Assembly (NCBI RefSeq): GCF_024494575.1
Contig: NZ_JANHDO010000001.1
Span: forward strand, 992,001-1,056,000
Direction: 5' to 3'
From: Halorubrum salinum
GTDB lineage: Archaea; Halobacteriota; Halobacteria; Halobacteriales; Haloferacaceae
Length of the DNA: 64,000 bases
The stretch's first letter is position 1, and each line of letters starts with the position of its first letter. The notes beneath the pieces were generated by a model. It saw only the letters and a list, made by a program, of their open reading frames with translations, searched no databases and had not been told where the DNA came from. Positions 28,398-32,124 of the stretch are shown one piece after another. A program made the translations under genes and the position numbers.

Positions 28398-29288
28398 TCA
28401 GCTCGCGTCGGGGGCCTCGGCGCGGGCGGCGTGGCCCCGCTCGGCACCCTCTTTCAGCTCTCGCGAGAGCGACTCCAGCCGCTCTGCGACCGCCTCGGTC
28501 GACAGGTCGTTCTCGACGCCGTCGGCGACGATGTCCACGAGCGCCGAACCGACGATGATCCCGTCTGCGCCGCCGGCGACGATGCGCTCGGCGTGCTCGC
28601 CGGACGAGATGCCGAACCCGACGGCCTTGGGCACGTCGTAGTCGGCGAGGCGGTCGAGGCTCTCCGTGGTCTGATCCGAGACGTCGTCGCGCGCGCCGGT
28701 CGTCCCGAGCCGCGCCTGCACGTAGACGTACCCCGACACCCGGCTCATGATCCGGTCGAGCCGCTCGCCGACGGTGGTGGGCGCGACGATGAAGACGAGA
28801 TCCAGCCCGAACTCGTCGCACGCCTCGCGCAGCGGGTCCGCCTCTTCGGCGGGGAGGTCCGGGACGACGAGCCCCTCGATCCCCGCGGCGGCCGCGCGCT
28901 CGACGAAGGGGCGTGGCCCGGTTTCTTCATCATATTGATAAATGAGGTTGTAGTACGTCATGCAGACGAGCGGGGCGTCGACGTCGAGTCCCTCCGCGAA
29001 CTCGAAGAACCGATCCGGCGTCATCCCGGCGTCGAGCGCGCGCACGAGCGCGCCCTGAATGGTCGGGCCCTCCGCGATCGGCTCCGAGAAGGGGAGACCG
29101 AGTTCGATCACGTCCGCGCCGCCGCGGTCGAGGGCCTCGACGTACGCCTTCGAGGCCTCGTAGTCCGGGTCGCCGACCGCGAGGTACGGGACGTAGGCGG
29201 GTCCGTCGGCGAACGCGGCGGCGATGGCCGCGGAGTTGCCGGTCTCCGCTCCCGCGTCCGCGTCCGGCTTCGCGTGCTCTCCCGTCAT
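28398..29288 (-). CDS. trpA: Tryptophan synthase alpha subunit
   Basis: A 296-residue TIM-barrel subunit that cleaves indole-3-glycerol phosphate to indole and glyceraldehyde 3-phosphate. The first catalytic Glu lies in [20 protein letters not shown], the loop with catalytic Asp in [13 protein letters not shown], and the phosphate site in [13 protein letters not shown] and [11 protein letters not shown]. The N-terminus has a short acidic leader before [22 protein letters not shown]. The ATG shares one base with the trpB stop (TGATG), so it is coupled to trpB. Confidence 0.96.
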
Positions 29289-30601
29289 CAGATTCCCCCC
29301 GTGAACATCGACATGTCCGGTGCCTCGTCGATGTCGCGTTTGTCCGTCTCCTCGATGGCGGCGTCGAGGTCCTTGTCGCCGCGCCCGGAGACGTTGACGA
29401 CGACCCGCTCGCCCAACTCCTCGTGGTGCTCCTCCAAGAAGCCGAAGGCGTGTGCCGTCTCCAAGGCCGGGATGATCCCCTCGGTGCGCGAGAGGCGATG
29501 GAACCCTTCGAGGGCCGCGTCGTCGTCGACGGCGACGGGGTTCACGCGTCCCTCGTCGACGAGGTAGGCGAGTTCGGGGCCGACGCCGGCGTAGTCGAGC
29601 CCGGAGGAGATCGAGTGGCTCTCCATGATCTGGCCGTCGGAATCCTGCAAGAGCTTCGTGCGCGCACCGTGGAGTACGCCCTCCGCGCCCGTGTACAGCG
29701 ACGCGGAGTTCGGCGCGACGCCGGCCTCCTCGTCGACCTCCAGCGTGGAGCCGCCCGCCTCGACTGCGTGGAGCGCCACGTCCTCGTCGTCGACGAACGC
29801 CGCGAACGACCCCATCGTGTTGGAGCCGCCGCCCGCGCAGGCGACCACGTCGGTCGGGAGGCCGCCGGTCTTCTCGATCGACTGCTCGCGGGCCTCTTCG
29901 GAGATGACCGCCTGGAAGTCGCGGACCATCACCGGGAACGGGTGGGGACCGACCACGGAGCCGATCACGTAGTGGGTCGTCTCGACGGTCGTCGCCCAGT
30001 CGCGCATCGTCTCCGAGATGGCCTCCTTCAGGGTGCCGCGGCCGGCCGTGACCGGGTTCACTTCGCTCCCGTTGAGCTTCATCCGGAAGACGTTGGGGCG
30101 CTGGCGGTTGATGTCGCGCTCGCCCATGTATATCTCACAGGGCATATCGAGGTGGGCGGCCGCCATCGCCGTCGCGGTGCCGTGCTGGCCCGCGCCCGTC
30201 TCCGCGATGATCCGCTCTTTGCCCATGTACTTCGCGAGAAGCACCTGACCGAGCGCGTTGTTCAGCTTGTGTGCGCCGCCGTGGAGCAGGTCCTCGCGCT
30301 TGAGGTAGATCTCGCGGTCGTACCGCTCCGAGAGCCGGTCGGCCCGCTGGAGCGGGATCGGCCGCCCGCCGAAGTCCGCGAGCCGCTCGCGGAACTCGTC
30401 CATGAAGCCGTCCTCGTTGTTCAGGACGTAGCGCTCGTAGGCATCGGTCAGTTCCTCTATGGCCGGCATCAGCGCCTCGGGAACGTACTGGCCGCCGTAG
30501 CGGCCGAACTTCCCGTCGTCGCGGCCGCGCTCGCGACCGGGGCGTCGCGATGGCACCGCCGTGTCCGGTTCCTCAGCCGTTCGCGTGTCGGATTCGCTCA
30601 T
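29288..30601 (-). CDS. trpB: Tryptophan synthase beta subunit
   Basis: A 437-residue PLP subunit joining indole and L-serine to tryptophan. The PLP lysine lies in [20 protein letters not shown], the catalytic Glu in [13 protein letters not shown], and the phosphate-binding loop in [11 protein letters not shown]. The N-terminal 30 residues are a haloarchaeal acidic/basic extension before [17 protein letters not shown]. The gene overlaps the end of trpC by 4 nt (ATGA), the start being the ATG inside the trpC stop. Confidence 0.96.
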
Positions 30602-31455
30602 GTGGGTGTCTCCGTGTCCGCCGTCTCGTCTGCGTCCGGTTTCGTCTCCGCGCTCTCGTCCGCTGTCGCGTCCGCCTCCGTCTCTGCGCCCGCCTCCACG
30701 CGGGTCAGCGTTCGCGTGTTCGCCGTCACGTTCCCGTCCATGATCGCACTGCCGACGAGCAGCGCGTCGGCACCGGCCGCTCGCATCCGCCGGACGTCCG
30801 CCGGCGAGCCGATCCCGCTCTCGGCGACGAGCGTCACGTCGTCGGGAGCGTCGGGCGCGACCGACTCGAAGGTTTCGAGGTCGACCTCCAGTCTCGCGAG
30901 GTCGCGGTTGTTCACGCCGACGAACGTCGCGCCCGCGTCGACCGCGGCCGCTAGCTCCGCGGCGTCGTGAACCTCGACGAGCACCTGAAACCCGCGGTCG
31001 CGCGCGGCGGCGAGCAGGTCCGGGAGGTCGTCGCCGACGAACCGCGCGATGAGCAGGACCACGTCGCTCTCGACGGCGTCCAACTGCGACTCGGCGACGA
31101 CGAAATCCTTCCGGAGCACCGGCACGTCGACGGCCTCGCGGACGCGTTCGAGGGTGTCGACGCTCCCGCCGAAGTGCTCCGGCTCCGTGAGCACCGAGAG
31201 CGCCGCGGCCCCGCCCGCGACCATCCCCTCCGCGAGCGCGACGGGGTCGTCCTCACGGGTTCCCTCCGTCGTCGGGCTCGTCGGCTTCACCTCGGCTATC
31301 ACGGGCACGCGACCGTCGGCCTCGGCGCGGTCGAACGCGGCGCGCAGGTCTCGGGGAGCAACGTCTACGCGGTCAGTCCGTCCCTCGGCCGCTCGCTCCC
31401 GAGCAGTCGTCAGTATCGACTCGACCGCCGGGGCCAGCGCGGAATCATCCTCCAT
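30598..31455 (-). CDS. trpC: Indole-3-glycerol phosphate synthase
   Basis: A 285-residue TIM-barrel enzyme, first gene of the trpCBA operon, which closes the indole ring from carboxyphenylamino-deoxyribulose phosphate. Visible motifs are [15 protein letters not shown] (catalytic Lys), [50 protein letters not shown] and [11 protein letters not shown]. About 40 acidic, Glu/Thr/Asp-rich residues follow the barrel, an unusual tail. The start ATG at 31455 lies inside a perfect palindrome, described separately. trpD, trpE/G and trpF are not in this window. Confidence 0.95.
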
Positions 31456-31470
31456 TAGTGTACACTAATG
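31453..31470. promoter_or_regulatory. Perfect 18-bp palindrome on the trpC start: candidate trp operator
   Basis: CATTAGTGTACACTAATG reads identically on both strands and its minus-strand copy contains the trpC ATG. The core TGTACA is the recognition hexamer known for the archaeal tryptophan repressor TrpY in Methanothermobacter. A TATA-like CCTTATGC lies about 30 nt upstream on the minus strand (31482-31489), so the palindrome would cover the transcription start of a leaderless trpCBA mRNA. Operator function is inference from position and symmetry. Confidence 0.6.
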
Positions 31471-31593
31471 CACTCATCTGTGCATAAGGCTTGCGGGCGG
31501 CGGAGGAATATTCGGTACTGACGGAGCGCGTCGCGGATGCGGAGACGGCGGGTGACCCAGCGATTTAACCGTCGGGACCGCGGAGCCGGAGCC

Positions 31594-32124
31594 ATGCAAT
31601 CGACGGGCACGTCGGGCGTGTTCGCCCGACACTTCGAGGAGATCGGGCGCGCGGTCGAGGTCGGATTCGCCGGCGGCCGCGTGATCGCGGTCTCGTTTCC
31701 GGCCGAGACGCCGGCCGACGCCGAGGCGGACCACGGGCTGCTCGACCGGATCGGCGCGTACCTGCAGGGCGAACCGGCAGACGAGGGCGTCTCGACCGGA
31801 GATTCAGCCGGCGGCGGAGTCGGGCCCGCCACGCGCGGAGCCGACCCGTTCGACGACGTGCAGATCGGCCTCACGGTCCCGACCGACCAGCGGCGCGTCC
31901 TCGACGCGCTCCGATCGGTCCCGTCCGGCGAGTCCGTCTCGGTCAGTCGGCTCGCGCGGTCGGCCGGCTACGACGACAACGACGCCGACGACCTCGACAC
32001 CGTGACCCGCGCGCTCAGCGAGAACCCGATCCCGTTACTGCTCCCCGACCACCGGGTGCAGGGCGGGCCGCACGCCACGCCGGGCGAGGTCCGAGACGTG
32101 TTGCGGCGGGTCGAAGGAGTGTAA
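31594..32124 (+). CDS. MGMT-like DNA-binding domain protein lacking the alkyl-accepting cysteine
   Basis: A 176-residue protein whose C-terminal part follows the O6-alkylguanine-DNA alkyltransferase plan: a helix-turn-helix-like segment (PSGESVSVSRLARSAGY), the Asn-hinge region (TVTRALSENPIPLLL) and the active-site box. The box, normally PCHRV, reads PDHRV (Asp152), so the alkyl-accepting Cys is absent. This recalls alkyltransferase-like proteins, which recognise damage without repairing it (there a Trp replaces the Cys). The N-terminal domain (FARHFEEIGRAVEVGF) is present. CGATTTAACC at 31561 is a TATA candidate for the ATG at 31594. Confidence 0.72.
   Translation: MQSTGTSGVFARHFEEIGRAVEVGFAGGRVIAVSFPAETPADAEADHGLLDRIGAYLQGEPADEGVSTGDSAGGGVGPATRGADPFDDVQIGLTVPTDQRRVLDALRSVPSGESVSVSRLARSAGYDDNDADDLDTVTRALSENPIPLLLPDHRVQGGPHATPGEVRDVLRRVEGV

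Follow-up and report, generated by a model that had tools for sequence, protein, structure and literature searches.

The gene at 31594..32124 on the forward strand of the window (the whole 64,000-nucleotide stretch of Halorubrum salinum DNA analysed here) encodes an MGMT-fold protein in which aspartate stands at the alkyl-acceptor position. The explanation that best accounts for our results, to which we assign a probability of about 0.6, is that this protein is the Halobacteria-wide orthologue of a full-length archaeal MGMT, that it has lost alkyl transfer, and that it is now a non-catalytic binding protein built on the MGMT fold, having probably been put to new use. The protein descends from an MGMT and keeps its fold; it has lost the acceptor cysteine, the tyrosine and the active-site loop, its arginine finger is not conserved, its helix-turn-helix (HTH) segment is acidic, and the gene is under purifying selection.

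An MGMT fold with aspartate at the acceptor position

Translation of 31594..32124 gives 176 residues plus a stop codon and contains NPIPLLLPDHRVQGG. Residue 152 is aspartate (codon GAC, 32047-32049) and lies within a PDHRV motif (residues 151-155, 32044..32058, forward strand) whose MGMT counterpart is PCHRV. An alternative in-frame ATG is present upstream at 31537; the start at 31594 is likely because the aligned homologues begin near this position, which is no proof since their own starts were chosen by a script. The window contains the wider pattern NPxPxxxPDHR, in DNA form, a single time; none of 100 dinucleotide shuffles contains it.

A profile match to MGMT, which the preliminary description had set beforehand as a test, was found: Pfam identified PF01035 as the only domain, at residues 99-157 (35.7 bits against a cut-off of 27, E 7.9e-9), and the product is the sole PF01035 match in its own genome. 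The NCBIfam model TIGR00589 (ogt) matched under its cut-off (29.5 bits against 46.4). An AlphaFold2 model of the protein (mean pLDDT 88.4) has two domains and the MGMT fold. Its best match among solved structures is 4zyd, the MGMT of Sulfolobus solfataricus (Z 15.8, 139 residues, 2.2 Å); Foldseek returned 4wxd (E 4.7e-8) with full-length MGMTs as the top structures, and the S. pombe ATL 3gva aligned with the C-terminal domain only (Z 8.9). Residues 5-176 of the model align with full-length MGMT, so the AGT N-terminal domain is present, in agreement with the preliminary description, along with a 22-residue insert between the domains (residues 61-82, 31774..31839, forward strand) that was recognised as an alignment gap. 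The insert has low pLDDT (57 for residues 61-70 and 55 for 71-80) and is unique to this protein among the 41 rows aligned first; the Halorubrum laminariae locus (L072) also gave a longer match, of 519 nucleotides.

Translation and alignment confirmed that Asp152 takes the place of the alkyl-acceptor cysteine in an MGMT homologue. The accompanying claim of a preserved MGMT layout is true of the fold but not of the active site: in addition to the catalytic Cys, Tyr114 (replaced by Val), the arginine finger (replaced by Asp) and the active-site loop are missing from the aligned protein. The His-Glu relay and the Asn hinge of MGMT/AGT are retained. Glu174 (32113..32115, forward strand), the equivalent of human MGMT Glu172, shows no variation across the first alignment (41 rows), and the same is true of Asp152, His153, Arg154 and the NPxP hinge; an orthologue outside these rows (G288) has Cys at the Arg154 position. 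In the model, the D-H-R residues form a short helical turn (DSSP).

Distribution and descent within Halobacteria

A family profile of 21 members matched 390 of the 391 genomes of the class, and all 377 of those with at least 90% completeness and at most 5% contamination. Reading the acceptor site in 129 distinct orthologues (out of 166 rows) gave Asp in 122, Ser in five and Cys in two, with two of the Asp sites, GDHRV and PDHCV, being read by eye; conservation of the Asp among haloarchaeal homologues, a point raised in the preliminary description, is thus borne out. Of 137 rows, in which some genomes appear twice, 107 encode the Asp with GAC and 30 with GAT. Among the matches listed, the NPxPxxxPDHR DNA motif was found in 215 of 232 class genomes, an inexact figure as the one motif match of G199 is a different sequence, while the reversed motif was found in none of the 232. 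The 17 genomes lacking a motif match include one with Cys (G159), four with Ser (G188, G228, G285 and G149) and four with Asp accompanied by codon or neighbouring differences (G144, G165, G209 and G288); the remaining eight include three with no match in the stretch retrieved (G220, G230 and G293). Ser replaces Asp in one derived genome each of families f3, f9 and f10, and the Asp motif is present in further genomes of f9 and f10, which argues that no one side chain is required there. Named carriers are species of Halorubrum, Halobellus, Halococcus, Natrinema, Haladaptatus and Halobacterium. Our literature searches, judged by titles and the beginnings of abstracts, found no paper on the Asp form.

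The presence of Asp across distinct orthologues and class genomes rules out a strain-specific mutation or a sequencing error. Homologues with Cys, which the preliminary description would have taken as the sign of a strain mutation, do exist, and the two detected are distant, belonging to a sister clade rather than to the close relatives of the window protein. One genome of the window's genus (G105) contains an extra, truncated copy of the C-terminal part of the gene (L177) with the sequence LIADHRI. All 148 genomes of the window's family have a PF01035 match and 60 of them have more than one (counted by hand); the best 30 of the second matches are canonical Cys-MGMTs with PCHRV. Within the window's genus, a second PF01035 gene was found in none of 30 genomes.

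The tree, the landmark alignment and the dN/dS analysis draw on 144 loci, with some genomes represented twice. In the tree (68 rows, with the bootstrap unsettled and several phylum rows of unusual composition), the orthologues form one clade (100/99) that is separate both from 14 MGMTs of the phylum's other families and from the canonical haloarchaeal Cys-MGMT, which occupies its own branch (100/100). This topology rules out that the protein arose through decay of the canonical haloarchaeal Cys-MGMT. Within the orthologues, a basal clade composed of families f5 and f11 (98/84) is sister to a derived clade (100/96). The basal members keep the tyrosine and the loop, together with either Cys (G159, G337) or Ser (G412, G285), and each of these four genomes is without a further PF01035 match. 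The derived members in the tree have Asp, or Ser in single f9 and f10 genomes; the f3 Ser was read outside the tree, and L078 and L106 were left out of it but included in the landmark alignment. Because Cys and Ser rows of the sister clade keep the tyrosine and the loop, a Cys MGMT evidently decayed within the class Halobacteria.

In the landmark alignment, an equivalent of Tyr114 is present in 4/4 basal, 14/14 phylum and 8/8 canonical haloarchaeal rows, and in 0/42 derived rows. The active-site loop is likewise kept in the basal clade and deleted in the derived form, and Arg stands at the finger position in 10 of the 42 derived rows. The 14 aligned MGMTs from the phylum's other families, taken from a longer set of phylum matches, all have Cys, Tyr and Arg. 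The HTH segment (residues 112-144, 31927..32025, forward strand) is longer and more acidic than that of MGMT by alignment and charge count; its mean charge is -4.9 in derived rows (range -9 to 0, n=42) and -5.8 in basal rows (n=4), compared with +3.6 in phylum MGMTs (n=14) and -1.4 in canonical haloarchaeal MGMTs (n=8). Since the arginine finger and the positive HTH are already missing in the Cys rows, the landmark alignment suggests that they were lost first, to be followed by the cysteine, the tyrosine and the loop. The canonical haloarchaeal Cys-MGMT (L002-L031) has Val or Gln in place of the arginine finger in all eight rows aligned and keeps the Cys, Tyr and loop. Acidity is a general trait of haloarchaeal proteins, and taken together with the canonical Cys-MGMT lacking an Arg finger, this means that an acidic HTH and a missing finger alone are no proof of lost DNA binding.

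For the window protein together with 27 close named relatives, mostly Halorubrum, the median dN/dS was 0.30 (range 0.08-0.66; 367 pairs with dS 0.1-1.2), a value that rules out a pseudogene for the family. The reading frame is split in G114 and G418. Compared with 22 Halorubrum loci, the window protein is 56-78% identical (median 62), whereas identity at the same loci is 77-93% (83) for TrpC and 87-97% (93) for TrpB. Selection maintains the gene for its protein product, yet it is faster-changing than its neighbours.

The trp neighbourhood and TGTACA boxes

The gene is divergent from three conserved neighbouring ORFs on the reverse strand which we take to be trpC (indole-3-glycerol phosphate synthase, 30598..31455), trpB (29288..30601) and trpA (28398..29288). 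The trpC product ends in a long Asp/Glu/Thr-rich C-terminal tail (28 residues given). The three genes lie divergently upstream in 39 of 41 loci of the window's own family, with trpA falling past the end of the stretch in three. In 80 named loci, the far end of trpC is at most 2 kb away in 65, 2.2-2.4 kb away in six, 4.4 kb away in one and outside the stretch in eight. Among loci less than 75% identical, an upstream gene cluster is common to 43 of 53 and a downstream one to at most 27 of 54. A LonB-like gene is convergent downstream in 35 of the 80 named loci (by eye), 75 of which have at least 3 kb on that side; a LonB-like gene also lies near the basal orthologues in G412 and G337, where trpC is not nearby. 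The basal orthologues in G412, G337 and G285 have neighbours that we presume to be NMN adenylyltransferase-like, as well as presumed LonB and TATA-binding protein genes in two genomes each (by eye), and a YchF-like gene is found nearby in G159. Each of the four basal genomes has trpC on a contig other than that of the orthologue, so the trp linkage, though strong, is confined to the derived clade. Co-loss with trpC is uninformative, as 389 of the 391 genomes of the class possess trpC; of the two exceptions, both 88% complete, G377 is without either gene and G355 is missing only trpC.

The trpC promoter (31453..31494, reverse strand) comprises GCAAGCCTTATG and, between it and the trpC start codon, TGTACA-like boxes; this long pattern was found once in the own genome at up to three mismatches. 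We read 69 trpC promoters, of which four had no core; in 64 of the 65 scored, at least two TGTACA-like boxes (at most one mismatch) follow a TATA-like core, compared with 1.3% of shuffles. The trpC boxes were present in 6/6 derived-family genomes read beside the basal ones, four of them without adjacency of the gene and trpC. No box was detected near the trpC start in 4/4 basal genomes, for which start codons are approximate; G285 has one TGAACA at -122. Twelve trpD promoters were also read, two of which were mis-anchored (L220, L224) and not counted, and TGTACA boxes were found in all ten that were well anchored, including those of basal G412 and G159. In the own genome, the trpD promoter (L227, C3) resembles that of trpC in that a TATA-like core is followed, ahead of the start codon, by spaced TGTACA-like boxes. 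We propose the trpC and trpD boxes as a candidate haloarchaeal trp operator that at trpC is conserved over the class except in the basal lineages. TGTACA is the TRP box of Methanothermobacter TrpY.

This arrangement could indicate that the MGMT HTH was co-opted for controlling trpCBA, either by binding the trpC promoter itself or by aiding the protein that does so. The proximity of divergent trpC in most named and own-family loci fits such a role, as does the occurrence of the boxes in nearly all trpC promoters scored and in every derived-family genome read, compared with none near the start in the basal ones. On the broader version of this idea, an MGMT took over the control of tryptophan synthesis at the root of the main haloarchaeal clade, its retained HTH or pocket now serving trp regulation; this version derives from the degenerate site, the divergent trpCBA linkage and the trpC boxes, each of which occurs in the derived clade but is missing from its sister. 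However, the trpD boxes in basal G412 and G159 imply that trp genes were under the control of boxes and a box-binding regulator before the Asp form arose. Moreover, the trpC boxes and the derived site separate just one pair of sister clades, which makes the association in effect one event, the HTH is acidic, and synteny is partly conserved on the other side too, where the LonB-like gene lies. We therefore regard recruitment to the trp promoter as unlikely, and the broader conversion as equally doubtful. Because TGTACA is also present at trpD in sister-clade genomes, another protein probably binds the boxes. TrpY, which binds TRP boxes, has homologues in haloarchaea according to PMC6737238, and in Halobacterium, where trpCBA is induced without aromatic amino acids, LrpA2 has been suggested as a candidate regulator (PMC4162585).

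Function and relation to known systems

The preliminary description had assigned the protein to an ATL-like class, which would bind O6-alkylguanine without repairing it and hand the lesion over to nucleotide excision repair. The MGMT fold is compatible with this, 3gva is among the matches of the C-terminal domain, and a back-up would be useful in the window's genus, given that none of its 30 genomes has a second PF01035 gene; Halobacterium NRC-1 is also described as being without an MGT1 homologue (PMC2816208). However, ATLs as characterised in PMC10779285 keep the base-flipping tyrosine and the arginine finger and do not have the AGT N-terminal domain. Here 42/42 derived rows have another residue in place of Tyr114, only 10/42 have Arg at the finger position, the pocket loop is deleted, the HTH averages a negative charge and the N-terminal domain has been retained. 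Furthermore, the 60 of 148 family genomes with a second PF01035 match still retain the gene. Measured against the features given in PMC10779285, the protein appears to be neither a working AGT nor an ATL; the proposed class is not upheld, and service as a lesion flag is improbable. Far less credible still is a dealkylase in which Asp152 takes the alkyl group as a hydrolysable ester, which would make the enzyme capable of turnover, unlike the suicide MGMT: Asp152, His153 and Glu174 are invariant in 41/41 rows and the AGT nucleophile is activated by His and Glu (PMC10779285), but the substrate-holding tyrosine and the loop are missing, and the interchange of Ser and Asp in derived lineages argues against special Asp chemistry.

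We therefore favour a non-catalytic MGMT-fold binding protein. The derived protein would no longer flip or dealkylate bases, and its role would be to bind a partner, in all likelihood a protein, and not to perform chemistry on lesion DNA; the conserved trpCBA linkage is the main lead to that partner. Asp and Ser are both favoured at the start of a short helix. Asp152 (or Ser) may thus be kept as the polar residue that starts the D-H-R helical turn beside the His153-Glu174 pair, and conservation of His153, Glu174 and the NPxP hinge fits maintenance of the fold. Against this explanation, the invariance of Asp152, His153, Arg154, Glu174 and the hinge could mean that the pocket still binds something, and a purely structural role would not need the Asp to be so constant. 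In addition, some derived rows are neutral in the HTH, and the top fold matches are DNA-binding repair enzymes.

The gene appears to be a near-universal one of a whole archaeal class. Its Pfam match can earn it an MGMT name, yet its features make an MGMT unlikely, and haloarchaeal repair inventories that count the Asp protein as an alkyltransferase would be wrong. The absence of any other PF01035 gene from 30/30 genomes of the window's genus raises the question of how O6-alkylguanine is handled. For Halobacterium NRC-1, described as having no MGT1 homologue in work that left O6-methylguanine repair open (PMC2816208), the Asp protein is the obvious candidate to test, though its features argue against such a role. 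The orthologues with Cys, Ser and Asp provide a natural series for studying the retirement and reuse of a suicide repair enzyme.

In common with MGMT/AGT/Ogt proteins (PF01035, TIGR00589), the haloarchaeal protein has the two-domain fold, the Asn hinge of NPxP, the His-Arg of PxHRV and the C-terminal Glu. It differs from them in having Asp or Ser for the acceptor Cys, no Tyr114, an unconserved arginine finger, no active-site loop, an acidic HTH with a longer turn and a score under the TIGR00589 cut-off. With ATLs (S. pombe Atl1, E. coli ATL) it shares a PxHR lacking Cys and the fold of the C-terminal domain, but it has Asp where ATLs have Trp (or Ala, as the preliminary description adds), its Tyr is lost and its Arg finger unconserved, and it includes the N-terminal domain that is absent in ATLs. 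The Cys orthologues of G159 and G337 resemble it in their N-terminal sequence pattern, lack of an arginine finger and acidic HTH; unlike the derived form, they keep the Cys, Tyr114 and the loop and have trpC on another contig. The canonical haloarchaeal Cys-MGMT has the Pfam domain in common with it, but forms a separate branch of patchy distribution in which the Cys, Tyr and loop are all kept.
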